The notes below the pieces were generated by a model. The model searched no databases and was not told the DNA's origin. It worked only from the letters and a program-made list of their open reading frames with translations. A stretch of DNA of 32,496 nt from a virus: positions 1-32,496 of the IMG/VR virus record IMGVR_UViG_3300006920_000138. The stretch is one strand, 5' to 3'. How positions within the stretch are numbered: the stretch's first letter is position 1; each line of letters opens with the position of its first letter. Below are positions 3,327-32,250 of the stretch, in pieces. The translations under genes and the position numbers were made by a program.

Positions 3327-4523
3327 CTAAGCCATAGTTATTGCCTTTACTACGCCTCCGCTATCTTTGAATGATAGTGCTCCAGTTGCTGAGTTAACAA
3401 ATAAGCTCAAGTTTTCCGCAGAAGCTGACGCTATCGGGTCTAATCTGACCTGTTTTAGCCACGCGATATTAAAGCCTCTTGTAGATATCCCTAAGTCTTG
3501 GGTTCCGCTAGCGGGTCTAAGTGCGTAGTTTTTGGTTGAGTTCTCAAGAACTAACCTTTCTGCTGAATTGGATACCCATTGGTGAGCGTAGTCCCCTTCA
3601 ACACCCCATTGCACTGTTGTTAAGCTAGATGATGCATATCCCTTTGGCGCACCTACTGTACCAACCCAGCTAAGTGGAACGCCAACCATTGGTTTACTGG
3701 CTCCAAATATAGCTCTTGAGGTAAATGCGGATTCACCTCCGACTAATACTTTACCAGCCGCGGGTGCGTACAACGTGTATCCTACCGCTTGAGTAGTCCA
3801 AAAGGCGTAATTTCCAGTGGCGCCCTTTGTTTGGTTGTGAACTTTAATACCAAACTGATTCGATACTGCGTCAAATCTACCGAGCGAATCAAGGTCTTTA
3901 GCTTCAAAGTGGAATAGTTCACCTACAGTGGACGCTGCACCTGTAAGAGTAGGCCAACTGATGTATCCGCCCCAAGTCGCAATGCTCCCCTCACCCGAAA
4001 ATTTAGCTCTGTTCTGATAACTGAACTGGTGTGACTGAGCGTGAGTTCCTGCTATTTCTGTTGTCGAATCGAATGTACCGTAAGTACCACTATCTGTAGC
4101 ATTGCTAATAATTGTTCTGTCAGCAAATGCGTGGCAGTCTGTTAGCGTGGTTAGTGTGCGAGCCGTTACAAATGCGTCTCTTAGTGCTGCACCAGTTATA
4201 TGCGTTGGGCCAGCTACGAAACGTTCAAACCTCGGAGCTAAAGGTACATATGACGTAAAGTCTATAGAACTTGCGGGCTTACTAAAAGCTTTCAAAGCAT
4301 CCAAACGTTGCGATGCGATAGCCGTGTCAGGTAGGCCGTTTGGCGTGATACCTGCATCAGCTAATAACGCGGTGTCGAAGCCCTCGTGGTCATTCGCCCA
4401 ATCTGCATTTAACGGTGTGCCGTCGCGAGCGCCGGGGACCGTCTCGTTTTTAAACGACCCGAATGGGTAATCCGTGTCGGCCGCATTAGCGCGAGGGGTG
4501 AATCGATCGAATATTTTTAACAT
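3327..4523 (-). CDS. Tail fibre protein (398 aa) with conserved N-terminal adaptor
   Basis: Residues 1-80 (starting MLKIFDRFTPRANAADTDYP, with the PGARDGTPL motif near 30) form the virion-attachment adaptor shared with the next gene upstream. The same kind of N-terminus is common in phage fibre proteins. The rest is Ser/Thr/Gly/Asn-rich and beta-like, as expected for a receptor-binding stalk and tip. No enzyme motif is seen. GGAG lies about 10 bases before the ATG. The adaptor-coding part has the C/G-rich codon style of the neighbouring tail genes, while the distal part is more A/T-rich, which suggests that the receptor-binding end was exchanged. It is the last gene of the late region and ends at the bidirectional terminator. 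Confidence 0.8.
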   Translation of the reverse strand: MLKIFDRFTPRANAADTDYPFGSFKNETVPGARDGTPLNADWANDHEGFDTALLADAGITPNGLPDTAIASQRLDALKAFSKPASSIDFTSYVPLAPRFERFVAGPTHITGAALRDAFVTARTLTTLTDCHAFADRTIISNATDSGTYGTFDSTTEIAGTHAQSHQFSYQNRAKFSGEGSIATWGGYISWPTLTGAASTVGELFHFEAKDLDSLGRFDAVSNQFGIKVHNQTKGATGNYAFWTTQAVGYTLYAPAAGKVLVGGESAFTSRAIFGASKPMVGVPLSWVGTVGAPKGYASSSLTTVQWGVEGDYAHQWVSNSAERLVLENSTKNYALRPASGTQDLGISTRGFNIAWLKQVRLDPIASASAENLSLFVNSATGALSFKDSGGVVKAITMA

Positions 4524-4539
4524 GTGTAAGGCTCCGAAT

Positions 4540-4561
4540 TAGCGCTCAACGTTGAGCGCTA
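4540..4561. repeat. 22-bp perfect palindrome between the two fibre genes
   Basis: TAGCGCTCAAC is followed directly by its reverse complement. In RNA it would form a 9-bp stem with a 4-base loop. No T-run follows on the minus strand, so it is not an ordinary terminator. It lies in the short gap between the spike gene (ends 4576) and the fibre gene (starts 4523). It may be an RNA-processing or stability hairpin, or mark a junction where fibre genes are exchanged. Confidence 0.6.
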
Positions 4562-4575
4562 CAATGTGATCACTA

Positions 4576-6804
4576 TTAAACGAACGCTACGTCTGACAAG
4601 TCAATTGTGTCGAGTGATAGCGAAACGGTGAGCGCTGGAATGTTAAAACCGTAACAATTCCCGTCAACCCCGATGTATAAGTTTGCAACGCCTGACGGTA
4701 GACCAGTAGCAGCCAGACAGGTAACTGTTTTAATTTTAACATTAGTCGGGCGTAAATGCTTCGGTAATTGCATGAACGGGTTACCTTCGGGCGATGTCGC
4801 GCCGTCGAAGTGTACTTTACCCGCCAACTTAAACACCTTGATAGTCGGGCGTGACGTTACACCAAAACCATTGCGCATCCAGTTAGTCGGAACGCTTTCG
4901 AATGGTTGCGACTCGCTGTCATCTAAACGATGCAATGCGCCCACAAGTGATTCAGACCAACCAAGACCAAGCATCATCGCAGCATATGGTGTCGGGTGAA
5001 TATTATCGACAACCATTGAGTCAGTTTGTACACCCGTTACGTTAGCGCTTAACCAGCTAGCAGTTAATGCGCCTTGGTTTTTAATCGATTGCAAGTTAAT
5101 TAAACCGCCAACCGAAGCAACAGCACGTATTAATAATGCTCGATACGTATAGCCTATTTGGTTATTTGCTGTATTTTGGCCGCCCGTTTGCCCATTGGCG
5201 TTGGCCTCGGCAAGCGAATAAAACTGTGTAGGTATTCCCACTATTGGGGTCATGCCTACCGACTTAGCGTAAGTGCAGATATCGATAATTGTCTGCGAAA
5301 AACTAGCGAAACTAGTAGACCCTTGGATATCGTTAACACCAACTTGAACAAGGCAATAATCGTAGCCTACACCAATTGCTTGCAATCGTGCGTACTGTTG
5401 CGTCGCCAACTCACCAGCCACTGACAGGTTATTTAACTCAGCTAACTGCAAGCCTTGAGACTGTAAAATGCTGCTCATAAGTCTGTACGGTGAATACTGC
5501 ACATCGTTGTCACTAATTGAATCACCTAGCGCAACGATACGTAACGGTTTGCTACCACCTTTCGAGTTTGTGATCACACTGCTAAACTGACTAACCGACG
5601 TTGTGCCATTTATCTGACTAGTACCGAACATAGCACCCGTGATATTTGAGCGTGTGTTGTATGTTCCAATAACTAGGCCGTTACATAAAACACTATACTT
5701 ACGTGATGAGATTATACGCACGCTCATCAATGAGTTATTGAACAAGTCGCGTTGCTGGTTCATTAACGTATATTGAACGCCAGTAACCAATGGTGATAAA
5801 CCAGCCGTTGAGTCAACGAGCATTACAGCTTGAGTGCCGCTGTTTTGTGAGTAATACGAATGCCCGTTAGCAGTCAACACACCAGCGAAGAATATACCCG
5901 GAGTTGGGTTAGATATTAAAGCAAAAGTCTCGTCGCCGACACGAGCCGCTTTTACTGCCGCGATATCTTTACCTGTTCCGCTAAACGATATCGAATCTGA
6001 CACAGTGGTAATTGGTGTGATCGTATTGCTTGGGTCAGCTAAATCTATGACAACGAAATTATTACCCACTAGTGTTCGAGGCTCAGAATAAACGCCTTGA
6101 CCTTGTGTGATGTTTGACAAATTAGATGATGCTAACGCACCTGTGTTTGGTTGCGTGTAATTACTAAAACCAAAGTTTTGTTGTATCTTTAAAATCTGAC
6201 GATTAGATCGGACATTATTATTGGCCAATGGGCTGTTAGTTGTGCCGCCACTTGATATAACCCGAATATACACACCTTCATCGGCCACAATCTCAATTGG
6301 CGACGTGGCGGGCGTTGGGTCATCGCCGTTAATAAAATAACCGCCGGTAACCGTTTTCGGTAAATACATCTTACCGCCGCCAACCGAATTTAAATATGCA
6401 AAATATGACGCAAACGCAGTTAAGTTGTTGGTCGTGGTTAACGATCCGTCATCGTCATCTTTACCGCCGAAGTCGAGAATACTCAACGTATCGAGTGAAC
6501 GACTTTGTAAGTCACGCTCAACGCCCGTTATAACCTCGTTAATTACCGAAGTTGACGGTTTACTGAATAGTTTCAACGCCTGTAAACGTTGCGATACAAG
6601 TGCCGTATCAGGTTGACCACTTGCTACTAGTCCAGCGTCAGCCATTAGCGCCGAACTGAAACCTTCTAGGTCATTACCGCTACGCGACGTCAACGGTGTA
6701 CCGTCACGTGCGCCCGGTGTCGACTCGTCTTTGAATGACCCATAAGGGTATTCACTGTCGGCGGGTAATGCGCGCGGTGTAAATTCGTTGTAAATTTTTA
6801 ACAT
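4576..6804 (-). CDS. Tailspike/fibre with SGNH esterase domain (742 aa)
   Basis: Residues 1-80 are the same adaptor type as in the downstream fibre. A linker and a segment starting like a beta-helix (LDFGGKDDD, about 110-160) follow. Residues ~420-620 form an SGNH/GDSL hydrolase: block I GDSIS with Ser429, block II Gly464, block III GVND with Asn491, and block V Asp600-x2-His603 (DNIHP). All four catalytic blocks are intact. Such domains deacetylate or de-esterify surface polysaccharides, so this protein probably recognises and trims host capsule or O-antigen. It starts 2 bases after the stop of the DUF2612 gene. The C-terminal ~120 residues are beta-rich. The esterase assignment is firm; the substrate is unknown. 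Confidence 0.88.
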   Translation of the reverse strand: MLKIYNEFTPRALPADSEYPYGSFKDESTPGARDGTPLTSRSGNDLEGFSSALMADAGLVASGQPDTALVSQRLQALKLFSKPSTSVINEVITGVERDLQSRSLDTLSILDFGGKDDDDGSLTTTNNLTAFASYFAYLNSVGGGKMYLPKTVTGGYFINGDDPTPATSPIEIVADEGVYIRVISSGGTTNSPLANNNVRSNRQILKIQQNFGFSNYTQPNTGALASSNLSNITQGQGVYSEPRTLVGNNFVVIDLADPSNTITPITTVSDSISFSGTGKDIAAVKAARVGDETFALISNPTPGIFFAGVLTANGHSYYSQNSGTQAVMLVDSTAGLSPLVTGVQYTLMNQQRDLFNNSLMSVRIISSRKYSVLCNGLVIGTYNTRSNITGAMFGTSQINGTTSVSQFSSVITNSKGGSKPLRIVALGDSISDNDVQYSPYRLMSSILQSQGLQLAELNNLSVAGELATQQYARLQAIGVGYDYCLVQVGVNDIQGSTSFASFSQTIIDICTYAKSVGMTPIVGIPTQFYSLAEANANGQTGGQNTANNQIGYTYRALLIRAVASVGGLINLQSIKNQGALTASWLSANVTGVQTDSMVVDNIHPTPYAAMMLGLGWSESLVGALHRLDDSESQPFESVPTNWMRNGFGVTSRPTIKVFKLAGKVHFDGATSPEGNPFMQLPKHLRPTNVKIKTVTCLAATGLPSGVANLYIGVDGNCYGFNIPALTVSLSLDTIDLSDVAFV

Positions 6805-6806
6805 TG

Positions 6807-7445
6807 TTATGCCCCGAAGTATAAGCCGTAATTAGCTCGTGAGTCACCGTAACCAAACACACCGCCGTATTGCGTGATTTGAGATTCTTCCGTGTACCCT
6901 AAAAATCTAACACCTTGTGGTCTTGGTACAACGTCGAAAGTATTAAATACGAAACGTTGTACGTCGTTTAATGTACCGTCAAACGATACGCTCATCGTCA
7001 TGTTTTCGTGGTCATTGACACGTATCGGTGAAATACCGGTGATATACACAAGAGCATCCACAACGCCGTCGAGTGTGGCGGGTGAGTTATTCTTTGCTAT
7101 TTTAGCATTTATAAGCATTCGAAAGATAGCGTCACTCACTTCTTGCGTGAGTATGTCACCCTCAGATTCGAACTGTGCGTCGAGTCCGCCGAACTGAGCC
7201 TCGTCACCCACTCCACCGAAATAAGTGTCAGCTTGGAAATCGACAAACGACTCGAAGCCCCTATCGATAACTACAATCCGACCAATGACGTCAAGTTGTT
7301 CGCCGACCGCCGCGTTAATATCGTAAGTATTACGTACCATTTCATAAGCTGATTCTATTTCATCGGCTAACGACGGCGTGATGTTATACCATTTGACAGC
7401 TTTGGGTTTATCGGCGTACTGTGCGTATACTCTATTATTAGTCAT
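6807..7445 (-). CDS. Baseplate wedge protein (DUF2612, gpI-like)
   Basis: The 212-residue protein has the look of the DUF2612 family. It has an N-terminal helical part (SLADEIESAYEMVRNTYDINAAVGEQLDVIGRIV), a central helical repeat (ILINAKIAKNNSPATLDGVVDAL) and a Gly/Tyr-rich C-terminus. These proteins occupy the position of P2 gpI, next to the gpJ-like wedge protein, and link wedges to fibres. The gene overlaps the gpJ-like gene by 8 bases and lies directly upstream of the tailspike gene, as expected. Confidence 0.8.
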   Translation of the reverse strand: MTNNRVYAQYADKPKAVKWYNITPSLADEIESAYEMVRNTYDINAAVGEQLDVIGRIVVIDRGFESFVDFQADTYFGGVGDEAQFGGLDAQFESEGDILTQEVSDAIFRMLINAKIAKNNSPATLDGVVDALVYITGISPIRVNDHENMTMSVSFDGTLNDVQRFVFNTFDVVPRPQGVRFLGYTEESQITQYGGVFGYGDSRANYGLYFGA

Positions 7446-13309: not shown

Positions 13310-13322
13310 CCGCCCCGAGATA

Positions 13323-13376
13323 TTTAAAAATAATTGAGTCGTAACGCTTGACACAACCGTCAATAGTGTTAATATT
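13323..13376 (+). promoter_or_regulatory. Promoter with TTGAC-N6-GTCAA operator (cassette 13.4 kb)
   Basis: TTGACA (13348-13353) and TAATAT (13370-13375, spacer 16) form a sigma70-like promoter. The palindrome TTGAC-ACAACC-GTCAA (13348-13363) covers the -35 and spacer. An A/T-rich block TTTAAAAATAATT lies 25 bases upstream (UP-element-like). The whole segment is a near copy of 16735-16788. Confidence 0.7.
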
Positions 13377-16722: not shown

Positions 16723-16734
16723 CGCGGTTGATAA

Positions 16735-16788
16735 TTTAAAAATAATTACGTTGCAACGCTTGACACAACCGTCAATAGTGTTTAATAT
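16735..16788 (+). promoter_or_regulatory. Promoter with TTGAC-N6-GTCAA operator (cassette 16.8 kb)
   Basis: TTGACA (16760-16765), a 17-base spacer and TAATAT (16783-16788) make a near-consensus promoter. The palindrome TTGAC-ACAACC-GTCAA spans 16760-16775. The segment from TTTAAAAATAATT onward duplicates 13323-13375 almost base for base. Confidence 0.75.
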
Positions 16789-17686: not shown

Positions 17687-18039
17687 TTATCGTCAATCCT
17701 CGATACGATGGCTTTGCAATAATTACGCCAATAACGGTTATCTAATTTGTGGCATTTCCACTGTTGGCCCGCGAACGTCCACACGTCAGACTGTTGAATG
17801 CTCGCGTCGAGTCCGTCGTTGATGTAAATACGACGAGCATCGACGATACGTTCACCACCCTTTTCGAGCGTTTCGATTTCACGGTCAGTTGCTTGCTGTA
17901 TGTTCACGGTGTGAGGTGTGACCGTTGTCGTGCCGTCTTGCCAAATGCCGTCAACGTAGCCGCCGCCAGTGAATGACGAACGTGTTGCGGGTATCGATAC
18001 GAATACGGGGTCGATATGCCCCACCATGTCTAAGCTCAT
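17683..18039 (-). CDS. Putative head closure / head-tail joining protein
   Basis: This 118-residue beta-rich protein (TPHTVNIQQATDREIETLEKGGERIVDARRIYINDG, ending FAGQQWKCHKLDNRYWRNYCKAIVSRIDD) has the typical layout of head-closure proteins that convert a tail-side OB-like fold into the head-tail interface. It overlaps both neighbours by 4 bases. The call rests on position and general pattern. Confidence 0.55.
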   Translation of the reverse strand: MSLDMVGHIDPVFVSIPATRSSFTGGGYVDGIWQDGTTTVTPHTVNIQQATDREIETLEKGGERIVDARRIYINDGLDASIQQSDVWTFAGQQWKCHKLDNRYWRNYCKAIVSRIDDK

Positions 18040-18638
18040 AAACCCTCGTTCGGTTTACCCGATATTAATTTATACGTTACGCTTTGACGCAATGCGCCCG
18101 ATGAAATTAACGGATTTGACGAACCTTTCTTTTTAATCGTACTTGGCGCGTTTGGTGGTGTGCGTAAATCCGTCATGTATTTCTGAACTTTACCGACCGC
18201 CACGACTCCGACCTTGTTTAACGCTTGGGTCATCGTGCCGCCGTCGCTGAGTGTTTTTTCAATGATTGTCAGATATTCAGCGTTACCAGACGCCACGCCA
18301 GGGTTTAACCAAGGTCGTGCTGGTATCTTGATAATGTGTGGACCGGTAACGCCTAATTCCATGTAACCACGGCCAGACTTGAGGAACCTCACATCGTTAC
18401 GATCCGCTGCAGCTTTACTCGCATAACCGTATGACGTGCCGCCGGGGTGAGTAATCTCCGAACCGAACTCATGTACCGCGCCTAATTGAGCGTTCGTGAT
18501 GTCGTCCGACTCGTGATTACCCGCGTCTTCATGTATTCCAACCGTCACGTATTTGTCGACCATCAACGCACGTAACGCTTTTTGAATAGCGTCTCGCGAT
18601 TGTTGAACATTGGTCACTGTGACTTTAGGTTTGAACAT
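18036..18638 (-). CDS. Neck / tail completion protein (HK97 gp10-like)
   Basis: The 200-residue protein has the marks of HK97 gp10-like and related virion morphogenesis proteins: NAQLGAVHEFGS near residue 49, IPARPWLNPGV near 107 and TPPNAPSTIKKKGSSNPLISSGALRQSVTYKL at the end. Between the first two there is an extra ~35-residue segment (HPGGTSYGYASKAAADRNDVRFL...) not usual in the core family. It would help complete the tail or neck. First gene of the neck operon, downstream of the 18.7-kb repeated element. Confidence 0.72.
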   Translation of the reverse strand: MFKPKVTVTNVQQSRDAIQKALRALMVDKYVTVGIHEDAGNHESDDITNAQLGAVHEFGSEITHPGGTSYGYASKAAADRNDVRFLKSGRGYMELGVTGPHIIKIPARPWLNPGVASGNAEYLTIIEKTLSDGGTMTQALNKVGVVAVGKVQKYMTDLRTPPNAPSTIKKKGSSNPLISSGALRQSVTYKLISGKPNEGL

Positions 18639-18696: not shown

Positions 18697-18901
18697 AACC
18701 CCGAACAAAAACGACTCAGGTAAATTTACAGGTACTAAAAGCGATTAAAGAATCAATGACTTAACGTACTTACCTCTATAACTCTACTTTCTATAACTGT
18801 AAGAATTATAAGTATGCATATAGTATATACAGTATGGATCATACATACATATACAGATAATATACAAGAATACTATAGGGAGTATTGAACGATACGGGGT
18901 T
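18697..18901. repeat. Structured repeated element, copy 1
   Basis: This ~205-bp segment is repeated at 31039-31252 in the same orientation. Long blocks are identical or nearly so, for example AACGACTCAGGTAA, AATCAATGACTTA, CGTACTTACCTCTATA and ATACAAGAATACTATAGGG. The ends are an inverted repeat AACCCCG/CGGGGTT (18697-18703, 18895-18901). Inside are AGGTAA/TTACCT, a nested hairpin GTATAT..GTATG-GAT-CATAC..ATATAC and AATACT-ATAGGG-AGTATT (18869-18886). The closing helix and the GTATG/CATAC helix each show a compensatory change against copy 2. The middle is very A/T-rich. It may be a structured RNA, a regulatory DNA site or an origin. Confidence 0.75.
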
Positions 18902-23955: not shown

Positions 23956-24813
23956 TTACAAACATATTAATTTATCACGTTTATCTAGATTATCTTGTTT
24001 CCACAGGGGTTGTAAATTAGTAAGGGCATTTATTATAGATGGGTCATTTACATCGTTCTTGAACCACCACGAAACAGGTATTATATGATCAATGTGCCAT
24101 TCGCCGTAATTTCCCCACTCCATACCATCTACGAATAACGATTCTAAGTGTGACATCAACTCATCCCTGTCATAACCTAATATCTCGTAACTCCCTCCGT
24201 TCTTGGTTGTCTTAGCTTTTCTTAATACACGTTTTAACATGTTACGACACGCAACTGACGCCTTGTATTCCGGACATTTAGCATAGCGTTCGCGTTGTCT
24301 AATCACGTTTAGTTTTGAGAAGTGAGTTTTATTATCTCTATGATATTTAGATTTAGTTTTCTGACGGTCAGGTGTAGCCGCCATTTCAATTGCACACTGG
24401 TGGCACATTCCGTTAGCGGTTATTCGTTCGCTTGCGTGACCTCGCTTACAAATCAAACCTTCAAAATAACGAGGAAACCCAAACGTCAACGCTTCGACTT
24501 TAGATATATACTTAACACCTGCTCGAATTTTGTTAGTTCGTTTATCGATTTCACGTTGGATTATACGATAGTGATCATTGATTCGCTTATTTAAGTTTTT
24601 ACGCTCTTTATGTTCTGATGTCGATCTACGTTCAGATTCTTTTAACTTACGAGTCGGACATTTTCGTTGTTCACGCATGACTATGTTTTTACATTCGACA
24701 CAATATGATTTTGCTGTTATACGTTCAGCAATGTGACCACGCTTGCACGGTTCACCAGTGAAGTATCGTTTAAGGTTTTGCGCTTTAGCATCCGCGCGAG
24801 AAATGATTTGCAT
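23956..24813 (-). CDS. HNH endonuclease with two N-terminal zinc knuckles
   Basis: The start at 24813 has GGTGG 6 bases upstream. The 285-residue protein has two copies of a C-x3-H..C-x2-C module: Cys23, His27, Cys38, Cys41 and Cys122, His126, Cys137, Cys140, each preceded by RYF(T/E)G. A Lys/Arg-rich linker (143-235) leads to a C-terminal HNH motif (HIDHIIP near 240, then NALTNLQPLWKQDN). It is probably a free-standing homing-type nuclease that cuts DNA to spread itself. The same zinc module occurs in the protein at 31409. It lies upstream of the protease gene. Confidence 0.85.
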   Translation of the reverse strand: MQIISRADAKAQNLKRYFTGEPCKRGHIAERITAKSYCVECKNIVMREQRKCPTRKLKESERRSTSEHKERKNLNKRINDHYRIIQREIDKRTNKIRAGVKYISKVEALTFGFPRYFEGLICKRGHASERITANGMCHQCAIEMAATPDRQKTKSKYHRDNKTHFSKLNVIRQRERYAKCPEYKASVACRNMLKRVLRKAKTTKNGGSYEILGYDRDELMSHLESLFVDGMEWGNYGEWHIDHIIPVSWWFKNDVNDPSIINALTNLQPLWKQDNLDKRDKLICL

Positions 24814-24908
24814 AATACCACCGTAGAGTAGTTGCGTAGAATTGAGGATGTGTGGCAATCGGTTCTACGTACCGACGTTCCCCCGCTAAAGGTAGCCACT
24901 CGGGCGCT

Positions 24909-29179: not shown

Positions 29180-30580
29180 CTATAAATATTCTTTAAGATT
29201 ACGGCGGGCTAACATGCCTGTACTGTTCGCTATGATAAACGAATCGGCTATGTTTGGCGATTCTATTTCTCGTTTAGCTAGGTCTTTCTTAGATTCGACC
29301 TTGACTTTACCTGCGTTATCGAAGTCTCGTTTAGGTGTGGACAGTTCGTCAACGATCGCGTCGAGCAGTTTCGGATTGATGTCTTCACTCGAAAAACTAA
29401 CCATATCCGAGGCAGGGAATTGCTTACCCTTCGTTACGGCCAGGTATGTGTTACGGAAACGGTCAGCTAGCATCCACCACGTTTGAGCCTTGAGGTTACA
29501 GAAAAAATCCTCGTTGTTAATCTTCGACGTGCCGTACGGCTTTTTAGGGTTAACGACTTTGGCACCAGCGTTAAACTTGAAGTGTTTACGCCACGGTGGT
29601 GACATGTTATTCAAGTGAGCGCCAGTGCCGGCACCGACACCTATCGAGTCGTATCCGATTTGTCCAGCACCTATCGACACGGCGTGACCTCGAACGCGTC
29701 GAGCCGACTCGAACAGTTCGTCCTCACCACCTTTCCATTCGTCCAAATGAATGCACACCGAGCCGTCCATTCCAGTCGTCGCGTTCTTGTCGTCACCCGA
29801 GTCGGCAACGTCATAACCGATAGTCTTACCGCCTCGCCACAAGCCCGTGAGCGGAACAACTGTCAAGTGTGCGTCAATAGCTGCCATTATCCACGAACGT
29901 TTAATCACAACGCTGTCATCGTCTTCTAGGGGTATTCCTAGGTACACGTGCGCGGCGTGGTCGTAATCTTCCTCGAACTCAGCTTCAATGTCGTCGAGTG
30001 CCGATTGCGTGAGGAACGGGTTTTTATCGTAATTGATTTGTTGTACTAACGAACCCTTCGGAGGTGTACGAACCAAACGTTTGTACGCGTAGTCACTCAC
30101 TAAACGAGGGTTAAACGCGAACCACATTTCGGCGCCAGGGTTACGCATGATCGTAGGACGAACAACCGTGAACATATTTTCCGTAAGATTGTGTGCTTCT
30201 TCGAACCAAGCGACCGTCGCTCCCTCGAACGATTTAACCTCGTCAACGTTACGCGCTAGACCGTAAAACCTGAATAACGAACCGTTTGTTTTATGTTCTA
30301 TCGCGTCCGCGTAAACCTTGAAGTTAGCGTCGAGCCCAAAATAACTAATTTTATCTTTCAGCAACGTGTAAACCGAATCGGCTATTCGATTCTGGTACAT
30401 ACGTAAACACAAAAAACGCTCAGTTTGAAAGTTGGCGCGGGCTATGGCCACACCTGCCATGTCGTGAGACTTGGAAGACATACGACCGCCGTGAAGCGTT
30501 CGGAACCTCACTGGTGTTCCGTCGGGTAATTCACGAGTGCGCCAAAAATCACGCAAGTTGGGGTTAAGCGTCGGAACCAT
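29180..30580 (-). CDS. terL: Terminase large subunit
   Basis: The 466-residue packaging motor has an ATPase and a nuclease domain. The Walker A region is GGRMSSKS (residues 31-38), with Ser in place of the usual second Gly. Walker B is VAWFEEAH with Glu127/Glu128. The nuclease domain has GYDVADSGDDKNAT (Asp257, Asp260, Asp263) and a C-terminal DAIVDEL acid. This is the PBSX/T4-like type. It overlaps terS by 17 bases and is followed by the portal gene. Confidence 0.95.
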   Translation of the reverse strand: MVPTLNPNLRDFWRTRELPDGTPVRFRTLHGGRMSSKSHDMAGVAIARANFQTERFLCLRMYQNRIADSVYTLLKDKISYFGLDANFKVYADAIEHKTNGSLFRFYGLARNVDEVKSFEGATVAWFEEAHNLTENMFTVVRPTIMRNPGAEMWFAFNPRLVSDYAYKRLVRTPPKGSLVQQINYDKNPFLTQSALDDIEAEFEEDYDHAAHVYLGIPLEDDDSVVIKRSWIMAAIDAHLTVVPLTGLWRGGKTIGYDVADSGDDKNATTGMDGSVCIHLDEWKGGEDELFESARRVRGHAVSIGAGQIGYDSIGVGAGTGAHLNNMSPPWRKHFKFNAGAKVVNPKKPYGTSKINNEDFFCNLKAQTWWMLADRFRNTYLAVTKGKQFPASDMVSFSSEDINPKLLDAIVDELSTPKRDFDNAGKVKVESKKDLAKREIESPNIADSFIIANSTGMLARRNLKEYL

Positions 30581-30965
30581 AAAAATCTGCCAATGTTGTT
30601 CGTGTCGTTACGGTGCCCGATAATTCAATCAGTTGTTTGTCGAGTCCGAGTAATTTCGCTTTACCCATCGACGCACCGACCGCAGCGCTCGTTTGAGGTG
30701 TTTCGGCACCAAGCGCAATTTGTCGAGCTTCTTCGAGTTCACCGAGCAGATCGTCAACGGTCACACGATGTCGCAGTCGATGTTCTTCGCGTAAAGCGTC
30801 AATTCTCCCCGCTACGTCCCCGTCACGGATTAATTCGCTTGCTCGCTTACGTATGGTCGTATCTTTCATTTTCGACGCGTTGTAAGCGCCCCTGTACGCC
30901 TCAGCGTGATTGTTTAATTCCACAACAAGACGAGCAAACTTTTCTTTCTTTTCCGTCATTGCCAT
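30564..30965 (-). CDS. terS: Terminase small subunit
   Basis: This 133-residue helical protein (KKEKFARLVVELNNHAEAYRGAYNASKMKDTTIRKRASELIRDGDVAGRIDALREEH) fits the Terminase_2 small-subunit family. It has an N-terminal helix-turn-helix-like DNA-binding part and a helical core. It recognises the packaging start. ATG 30965 has no strong ribosome binding site, and a second ATG lies 6 bases in. It is the first gene of the packaging operon, downstream (minus strand) of the repeated element copy 2. Confidence 0.85.
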   Translation of the reverse strand: MAMTEKKEKFARLVVELNNHAEAYRGAYNASKMKDTTIRKRASELIRDGDVAGRIDALREEHRLRHRVTVDDLLGELEEARQIALGAETPQTSAAVGASMGKAKLLGLDKQLIELSGTVTTRTTLADFYGSDA

Positions 30966-31408
30966 TCTAGTTCAGCCCATTATCTAACATGCCGTCAATA
31001 ATGCCACAATTCACCCCATAACGCCACACATCGAGCAGTACCCCGAATCAAAACGACTCAGGTAATTTTGAAGGTACTAGAAGTAATTTAACAATCAATG
31101 ACTTAGCGTACTTACCTCTATACCTCTATCTTTTAATGTTGTAAGAATAATGAGTATGTATAATAAGAGAGTATAGTATATAGGGTATAATATATATACA
31201 TATACAATTAATATACAAGAATACTATAGGGAGTATCGAAAAAAGCGGGGTAACATGCCCGATCCTTTACAACCCGCGCCACGACTGCGTTTCAGCTACC
31301 ACCCGAGTTTTACCCCGAACTGAGAAACAGTGGTTATTACGTCATAATTGCCATTATAATAAAAAACTGATAAAATCCCGTATACTAACAAACAGCAACG
31401 AGGAACAC
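30966..31408. other. Divergent non-coding region with repeated element copy 2
   Basis: No gene is supported here. It holds a minus-strand AATTGTG..ATTGA motif (30995-31011) like that before the neck operon, the repeated element 31039-31252, and an unstructured stretch with TATAAT at 31355-31360 (weak -35) and TATACT at 31381-31386 that may drive the gene at 31409. The TTGAC-N6-GTCAA operator is absent. Confidence 0.65.
31039..31252. repeat. Structured repeated element, copy 2
   Basis: This is the partner of 18697-18901. The ends are TACCCCG (31039-31045) and CGGGGTA (31246-31252); in copy 1 the outermost pair is A-T, here T-A. The inner hairpin is GTATAT..GTATA-ATATA-TATAC..ATATAC, where copy 1 has GTATG/CATAC. 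AATACT-ATAGGG-AGTAT is kept at 31220-31236. The A/T-rich centre differs most. The two copies lie in the same orientation 12.3 kb apart, each upstream of a late minus operon. Confidence 0.75.
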
Positions 31409-32170
31409 ATGGGAAAGCTATTTAAAATCTCCACGGGAGGATTAGCACCACATCCCGACCTACGAAGCGTGTCCGCAAAGATACGTCACCGCTTTTATAT
31501 TGACTATAAAAAGTGCGAAATCTGTAATAGTAGCTCTACGCGATACACTAAAAGTGGAAAATGCATCATGTGTCAGCGATACAAAATTGAGCTAACGAGA
31601 CACTATTCACGCATTAATGACGACTCAATATCAATGTGGCCAAAGGGCGTACCAGAAGTATTTAACCACCCAATGTTGCTCGGTGAGGTTAAAGCGATGC
31701 GCGAACTAATACGTTCAAATGACGGTTACACATTACACTATGAACCATGTACGACACACGGACATGTGAGAGTATCGAGCAGCGACGGCACGCCATGTAT
31801 GCAATGTAAAACAGCGCTTAAACCACGTGAACAAGCTATCGCCGACGGCGACTCACAATACGTGTCTACAAGCCCGTGTCGCTCGTGTGGTGAGATAACG
31901 TTACGTAGCGTTGACGACAAGACATGCGAAGCGTGTGACTATACTCCAGGTAGCGCCGAACGTGCTGAACCCGAGAACGACGACCGCTCAACACCCGACT
32001 CGATTATGATGCATGCTAACCCAGACATGATCCTCAGTCGCGAAGATGCCCGCGCGTATGACATGAAAGTGTATCGCACTGGTCAGAAATGCAAACACGG
32101 ACACGACCATTGGCGCTACGTATCCACCGGTAATTGCATAACGTGTCTACGCACTAAGGACGGCGAGTGA
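31409..32170 (+). CDS. Protein with four tandem zinc knuckles (253 aa)
   Basis: GAGGA lies 6 bases before ATG. The protein contains four similar modules: Cys36/39/52/55; Cys114, His119, Cys130/133; Cys157/160/173/176; and Cys228, His232, Cys243/246. Each has ~10-13 residues between the ligand pairs, often ending (T/S)-x-(G/D)-x-C-x2-C. The last module, preceded by MILSREDARAYDMKVYRTGQ, is clearly related to the knuckles of the HNH protein at 23956 (MQIISRADAKAQ..RYFTGEP). There is no nuclease core. It may bind DNA or RNA and regulate. A small downstream gene overlaps its stop by one base. Confidence 0.75.
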   Translation: MGKLFKISTGGLAPHPDLRSVSAKIRHRFYIDYKKCEICNSSSTRYTKSGKCIMCQRYKIELTRHYSRINDDSISMWPKGVPEVFNHPMLLGEVKAMRELIRSNDGYTLHYEPCTTHGHVRVSSSDGTPCMQCKTALKPREQAIADGDSQYVSTSPCRSCGEITLRSVDDKTCEACDYTPGSAERAEPENDDRSTPDSIMMHANPDMILSREDARAYDMKVYRTGQKCKHGHDHWRYVSTGNCITCLRTKDGE

Positions 32171-32250
32171 TGTCAGACGTCAACGCGATACTGTTGGGTT
32201 TATTAGTTGGTACCACCATTTATTACATTTACGATAAATACTCTAAATAA
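32170..32250 (+). CDS. Tiny membrane peptide (26 aa)
   Basis: The ATG at 32170 overlaps the upstream TGA (TGATG), implying coupling. The product, MSDVNAILLGLLVGTTIYYIYDKYSK, is one membrane helix with a short polar tail. Small membrane peptides of this kind are frequent in phage early operons. Function unknown. Confidence 0.5.
   Translation: MSDVNAILLGLLVGTTIYYIYDKYSK

Follow-up and report, generated by a model that had tools for sequence, protein, structure and literature searches.

A syntenic zinc-module gene of Jedunavirus-like phages and the tandem DNA word beside it: a candidate regulator of late operons

What might a small, nuclease-free protein of cysteine-rich modules do beside the terminase genes of a phage, when one of its modules also sits on an HNH nuclease of the same phage? 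The stretch of DNA analysed here (the window) comprises 32.5 kb from a myovirus-like phage, as judged from matches to portal, terminase, protease and baseplate families, and the gene in question occupies 31409-32170 on its plus strand (ATG start, 253 aa; P0001). An earlier note had given exactly this open reading frame, had read it as four zinc modules of one plan and had suggested capture of a domain shared with the nuclease, a DNA-targeting role, and regulation or antagonism of the nuclease. The observation was largely right, with the corrections set out below.

Zinc modules shared with an HNH nuclease

P0001 belongs to no Pfam (E ≤ 10), NCBIfam or PADLOC family, and the weak Pfam matches scattered through its relatives each occur in at most 2 of 12 family members. 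The PHROGs that it matches (1081, 20468, 29682, 30250, 23777 and 15231) are all families of unknown function. It is best filed with PHROG 20468 and 29682 (E 5.7e-10 and 2.1e-8), both of which are matched by all 12 aligned family members; this is a known phage family lacking an explanation, for which no function or DNA site is given there and both are proposed here. The window lineage differs from that family by an extra module, M4. PHROG 1081 is the module itself, a stand-alone single zinc module of 67 aa, which is arrayed in P0001 (E 4e-10) and recurs in the HNH protein (E 8e-28).

All four modules lie on the plus strand. M1 (31460-31597) has its knuckles at 31514-31573 (aa 36-55, C-x2-C..C-x2-C), M2 (31688-31822) at 31748-31807 (aa 114-133, C-T-T-H-G-H..C-x2-C), M3 (31817-31939), which is invariant in the family, at 31877-31936 (aa 157-176, C-x2-C..C-x2-C), and M4 (32033-32152), which is of the HNH-nuclease kind, at 32090-32146 (aa 228-246, C-x3-H..C-x2-C). 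Among the aligned rows that have each module, the four cysteines of M3 (invariant motif RQxAIxxGxxWYxPxxPCxxC..RxVxxGxCRxC) and the Cys/His set of M4 do not vary. Zinc ligation is predicted from these conserved residues, and the modules are presumably zinc-binding.

A search with the module alone, using an HMM of 12 modules from HNH and other module proteins with P0001 left out, scored M4 at 47.7, M3 at 13.1, M1 at 4.7 and M2 at 2.4 bits. Because the best of 1000 shuffles of P0001 reached 4.9 bits, M4 and M3 are secure, and M1 and M2 cannot be distinguished from noise in P0001 taken alone. In homologues the positions of M1 and M2 outscore every shuffle (15.0 and 10.0 bits in L098, 16.4 bits for M2 in SppYZU01, where M1 scores 6.7), and the four-module reading therefore holds for the family. 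Modules of one plan are thus supported by the HMM for M3 and M4 and through homologues for M1 and M2; the strict C-x3-H..C-x2-C pattern, preceded by the complete leader (I/L)SRxDAxA..YxTG, is found in M4 only.

The HNH nuclease (P0002) is encoded at 23956-24858 on the minus strand, with two related modules (24685-24807 and 24388-24510) and its HNH core near 24073-24090. It also matches the endonuclease VII family PHROG 1035 (E 6e-24), phage nucleases in which the same module occurs once or twice, whereas P0001 is without a nuclease domain. A leader motif that the earlier note had seen twice in P0002 is clear in the first copy (IISRADAKAQ..YFTG) and degenerate in the second (YISKVEALTF..YFEG). 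That the module is common to both proteins was borne out by PHROG 1081 in each and by the score of M4, and P0001 is indeed nuclease-free: the HNH catalytic domain is absent, and Pfam and PHROG matches to HNH or endonuclease VII are restricted to P0002. Several carriers of the zinc gene encode further proteins in which another zinc module, of the C-x-EHG.. type, is repeated before a putative nuclease domain, presumably of the GIY-YIG type (L006 4819-5526; L007, minus strand, near 985-1446; L033 1812-2690; L035 gp37, gp40 and gp74).

The full-length AlphaFold2 model of P0001 was poor (pLDDT 42.9), and M1 and M2 gave no confident model. The M3-M4 fragment, modelled from 7 aligned sequences, reached a mean pLDDT of 72.9, with most module blocks, M3 included, at about 76-87. 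M3 and M4 are predicted to share the order helix, strand, knuckle, strand, knuckle, and for these two the unrelated folds that the earlier note had named as evidence against a common module did not appear. A 69-aa single-module phage protein from a library of predicted viral proteins superposes on the model over 44 residues at 0.5 Å, and among the matches to M3-M4 are proteins bearing the names HNH, endonuclease VII or group I intron endonuclease. Foldseek and VIA searches of the PDB matched no solved structure to the M3-M4 fold, so that DNA contacts cannot be built by analogy; a sequence-profile search of the PDB returned only weak ribosomal zinc proteins (E 0.14-0.3).

M4 looks like the piece that was added or swapped, by recombination. 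Over the linker and M4 tract at 31976-32172 (plus strand), the final 197 nt, the DNA of the window shares 95-96% identity with that of the sister contigs L004 and L005, and the rest of the gene has diverged, the remaining protein being about 41% identical. The window lineage has M4, as do SppYZU01 and L097-L101; homologues of 170-215 aa, which finish at M3, lack it. Module number also varies in the HNH protein, with one in G001 and two in the window and G002. Capture of a domain, as previously proposed, is consistent with this exchange of M4; the whole protein is no recent capture, as the family with M3 is syntenic in many phages. Longer arrays, with up to four consecutive M3-type modules, were seen in the homologues L103 (3333-4232), L107 (3776-4447) and L098 (3989-4963).

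Position and distribution of the zinc gene

A tblastn search with KpV79_75, which together with PEi21 gp71 is the same gene as that for P0001, found 79 phage records, 73 of them covering at least 80% of the protein; 65 are Klebsiella phages, and the others include phages of Edwardsiella, Escherichia, Pectobacterium, Pantoea, Acinetobacter and Shewanella. One scan of genome contigs gave no relative. In the window, SppYZU01, KpV79, HF1013, KpP_22, PEi21, AAM22, 1611E, KB2, KsaM-C1, LAPP1 and IME346 the zinc gene stands at the early/late junction, divergent from the terminase and late genes. Divergence was read from annotation on both sides, and for Geezett, RCIP0033 and MSW-3 from one side only. 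L098 and L099 differ in that the zinc gene comes about fifth, not first, among the open reading frames of the divergent operon. At its position VchM138, which has the same structural genes, encodes an unrelated small protein. MG592407 encodes a free-standing two-module protein at another genomic position and is therefore a non-carrier only of the terminase-adjacent gene. As judged from these gene orders, the zinc gene is a syntenic gene of Jedunavirus-like phages.

What lies across the junction is less constant. In the window the first late gene encodes the terminase small subunit (30564-30965, minus strand; 61% identity to KpV79 terS), followed by the large subunit (29180-30580, minus strand; PHROG match). 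The terminase PHROGs beside the zinc gene are 2/3717 in the window, 38 in L097, and 15 in SppYZU01 and L101; the late genes of L098-L101 begin with one for a minor tail protein of PHROG 4688. None of the terminase, capsid, neck and sheath proteins of the window is matched in SppYZU01, yet this phage has the zinc gene and the tandem word described below. In the sister phage G001 (L003 3391-5565) the zinc protein is identical and the intergenic element the same, with no match to the large subunit of the window; here a different terminase seems to have taken the place next to an unchanged zinc gene.

The repeated element and its tandem word

Between the terminase small subunit and the zinc gene lies an AT-rich region, T (30966-31408; GC 0.37). 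It contains one copy of a long repeat (copy T, 31040-31251, minus strand), which is 78% identical to a second copy within the window (copy N, 18698-18900, minus strand) upstream of the neck/tail operon, whose first gene, downstream of copy N, encodes a neck/tail-completion protein (18036-18638, minus strand; 59% identity to PEi21 gp23). In a within-genome comparison of the 900 bases before terS with the 900 bases preceding the neck gene, a long repeat linked T and N in each of the 10 carriers of the structural lineage of the window (the window, G001, G002, KpV79, PEAT2, 1611E, KB2, KsaM, PEi21 and AAM22), with bit scores from 61.7 to 522; the repeat spans 286 bp at 93% identity in KpV79. Neither of two non-carriers with the same structural genes has it (VchM138 shows only two matches of 18-23 bp, V455E52 none), and SppYZU01 has no second copy of the element and a single tandem site. 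Copies are alike within a genome and different between genera, which is expected if the site evolves in step with the protein, or by gene conversion. Both copies in the window also hold ACTATAGGGAGTAT (18872-18885 and 31223-31236), which reads away from the late genes and which we take to resemble the core of a T7-type promoter.

Common to all elements is a core, the tandem RRGGTA-N2/3-RRGGTA, reading towards the late gene. In the window a motif scan placed one strict site at 31113-31126 (minus strand, GAGGTATAGAGGTA), reading towards the terminase. When one mismatch was tolerated, the 32.5 kb gave a single further match, at 18771-18784 (minus strand, GAGTTATAGAGGTA); as 0.92 such matches are expected by chance, it is the position of this site in copy N that matters. 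The 11 carriers from which the motif was derived hold 21 strict matches, 12 in T, 8 in N and one elsewhere (KpV79, 42749), against a simulated expectation of 0-0.27 per genome; T has a strict tandem in all 11 and N in 8 of 10, and none of the 7 non-carriers compared with them has one. The T region of G003, which stands outside these counts, contains the tandem by eye in the alignment. Every T match reads towards the terminase side, which in JD001, KpV52 and RCIP0033 was deduced from the direction of the zinc gene. A loosely spaced AAGGTATATGAGGGTA occurs in T of the non-carrier VchM138 and could be a decayed site or chance.

After the motif had been fixed, all six further carriers (LAPP1, RCIP0033, IME346, MSW-3, JD001 and KpV52) proved to have two strict sites each, one beside the zinc gene and the other, by arithmetic, 12.9-14.9 kb away, and none was found in five further records without the terminase-adjacent gene (0 of 12 non-carriers overall). 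As these carriers are mostly near relatives from the same genera, this is a weak test. A stronger one came from a profile scan of viral contigs, which gave 15 loci, 8 of them new. In six of the 8 new divergent contigs the divergent intergenic region before the late genes has a strict tandem, and the rest of the locus has none. The tandem of L100 in this region has one mismatch. L109 has just one unit in T; its strict site, at contig position 3, would be about 14.5 kb away on a circular contig. Carriers share ancestry, and the counts are therefore not independent events. Still, the motif accompanies the gene beside unrelated terminases, and gene and site accordingly appear to travel together. 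The DNA-targeting role put forward in the earlier note becomes plausible because a specific DNA motif tracks the zinc gene.

The single word CGGGGTA was less telling than the tandem, being near expectation in the window, G001, G002, SppYZU01 and PEi21. Most carriers, though not all, show a raised density of GGGTA in T (p ≤ 0.05 in 10 of 20, with five control regions; not at all in L100). Across homologue loci, no simple match was seen between the number of modules (2-5) and that of repeat units. About 10-30 nt past the tandem, the window, KsaM, L097, L103 and L107 have another word, partly palindromic and resembling GTAAATCAATGACTTAC.

The window also has repeats of other kinds. The palindrome TTGAC-N6-GTCAA occurs six times (452, 13348, 16760, 18992, 24960 and 26848; 0.02 expected) and 3-6 times per genome in G001, G002, PEi21, VchM138 and AAM22; these sites have the look of a promoter/operator set for early genes, unconnected with the zinc gene. 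A direct repeat (13322-13370 and 16734-16782) carries this palindrome, and another (4267-4541 and 6548-6821) joins two tail-fibre genes.

A candidate regulator of late operons

From module homology, synteny, the T/N repeat and the link between motif and gene across phage backgrounds, we infer that P0001 binds zinc and DNA, and it is probably a sequence-specific regulator of late operons whose module array contacts the tandem word in T and N. This array, the product of the gene at T, would bind RRGGTA-(2-3 bp)-RRGGTA in both elements, T serving as the promoter of the zinc gene itself and of the divergent terminase genes and N as the neck/tail promoter. As its own gene would start from the same element, the protein probably controls that too. 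Nucleases, which have to bind DNA, bear homologous modules, and this is counted in favour of DNA as the target. Weighing against the reading are the loose site of the non-carrier VchM138, the one unit in T of L109, the missing second copy in SppYZU01, the want of a simple relation between module and repeat numbers, the lack of a clear sigma-70 promoter over the tandem and the lack of a solved structure like M3-M4. Whether late promoters would be activated or repressed is a guess that leans modestly towards activation, which fits the constant strand of the tandem, the AT-rich stretch upstream and the finding, in the promoter check of T and N in the window, of no clear sigma-70 site overlaid on the tandem.

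Alternatively, the element could act in the 5' leader of late mRNAs, where the zinc array would bind GGGGUA words as an antiterminator or translational regulator. The tandem lies 85-399 nt before the start of the downstream late gene and always in its sense, as such a leader element would. However, leader folding is not consistently stronger than in shuffled sequence (z from -2.96 to +1.38 over 18 regions), no terminator-like site was found in T or N of the window, and the related modules are carried by DNA nucleases, which together make action on RNA unlikely. It is quite unlikely, too, that T and N are promoters for the host RNA polymerase homogenised by gene conversion, with the zinc gene a mere neighbour. 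Gene conversion would give the 100% identical T and N copies of 1611E (289 bp) and KB2 (150 bp), but it would not lead one to expect a motif that tracks the gene across different structural genes, is absent from phages of the same lineage without the gene, and has an unlinked copy 12-15 kb away. A role in packaging or replication, with T and N as pac- or origin-like sites that the zinc protein and the terminase would recognise jointly, would suit the neighbouring small subunit and the AT-rich repeated site. It appears very improbable, as the same motif adjoins unrelated terminases and copy N precedes the neck operon, no expected place for packaging sites. Finally, it is hardly credible that P0001 arose when an HNH protein lost its nuclease domain and that it now works with or against the HNH nuclease: the two share a module and M4 seems to have been exchanged, but the place of the zinc gene beside the terminase is conserved and, against the regulation or antagonism suggested earlier, the genes occur independently, with this kind of HNH missing from 5 of 11 carriers (KpV79, 1611E, KB2, PEi21 and AAM22) and present in 3 non-carriers (VchM138, V1.239 and V455E52).

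As a regulator of late operons, P0001 would recall the zinc late activators Ogr of P2 and Delta of P4, the latter a tandem form, by analogy as a small phage zinc protein that switches on late operons. Size and site are different, the cysteine spacing of Ogr and Delta differs from that of P0001, and neither P0001 nor its 12 family members match the Ogr_Delta Pfam family. The late-gene switch of Jedunavirus-type phages appears to be undescribed in the literature searched; the portions consulted of PMC11633184, PMC9007800 (Jedunavirus) and PMC8465730 (Edwardsiella phage PVN06) mention neither a zinc protein nor late promoters.

Perhaps, and this is speculative and on balance doubtful, the interchangeable modules form a phage DNA-reading kit, in which arrays of 2-5 modules would act as late-operon regulators reading tandem RRGGTA words, one or two modules would direct HNH and other nucleases, recombination would swap single modules among these proteins, and module sequence would specify the DNA word. 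For Jedunavirus-type phages, which include Klebsiella phages studied for therapy, the regulatory reading names one gene and one DNA word for late-gene switching. It also supplies a functional hypothesis for three PHROG families of unknown function and for a module found repeatedly on phage nucleases. Should each module read DNA on its own, the result would be a compact new kind of DNA-binding array.
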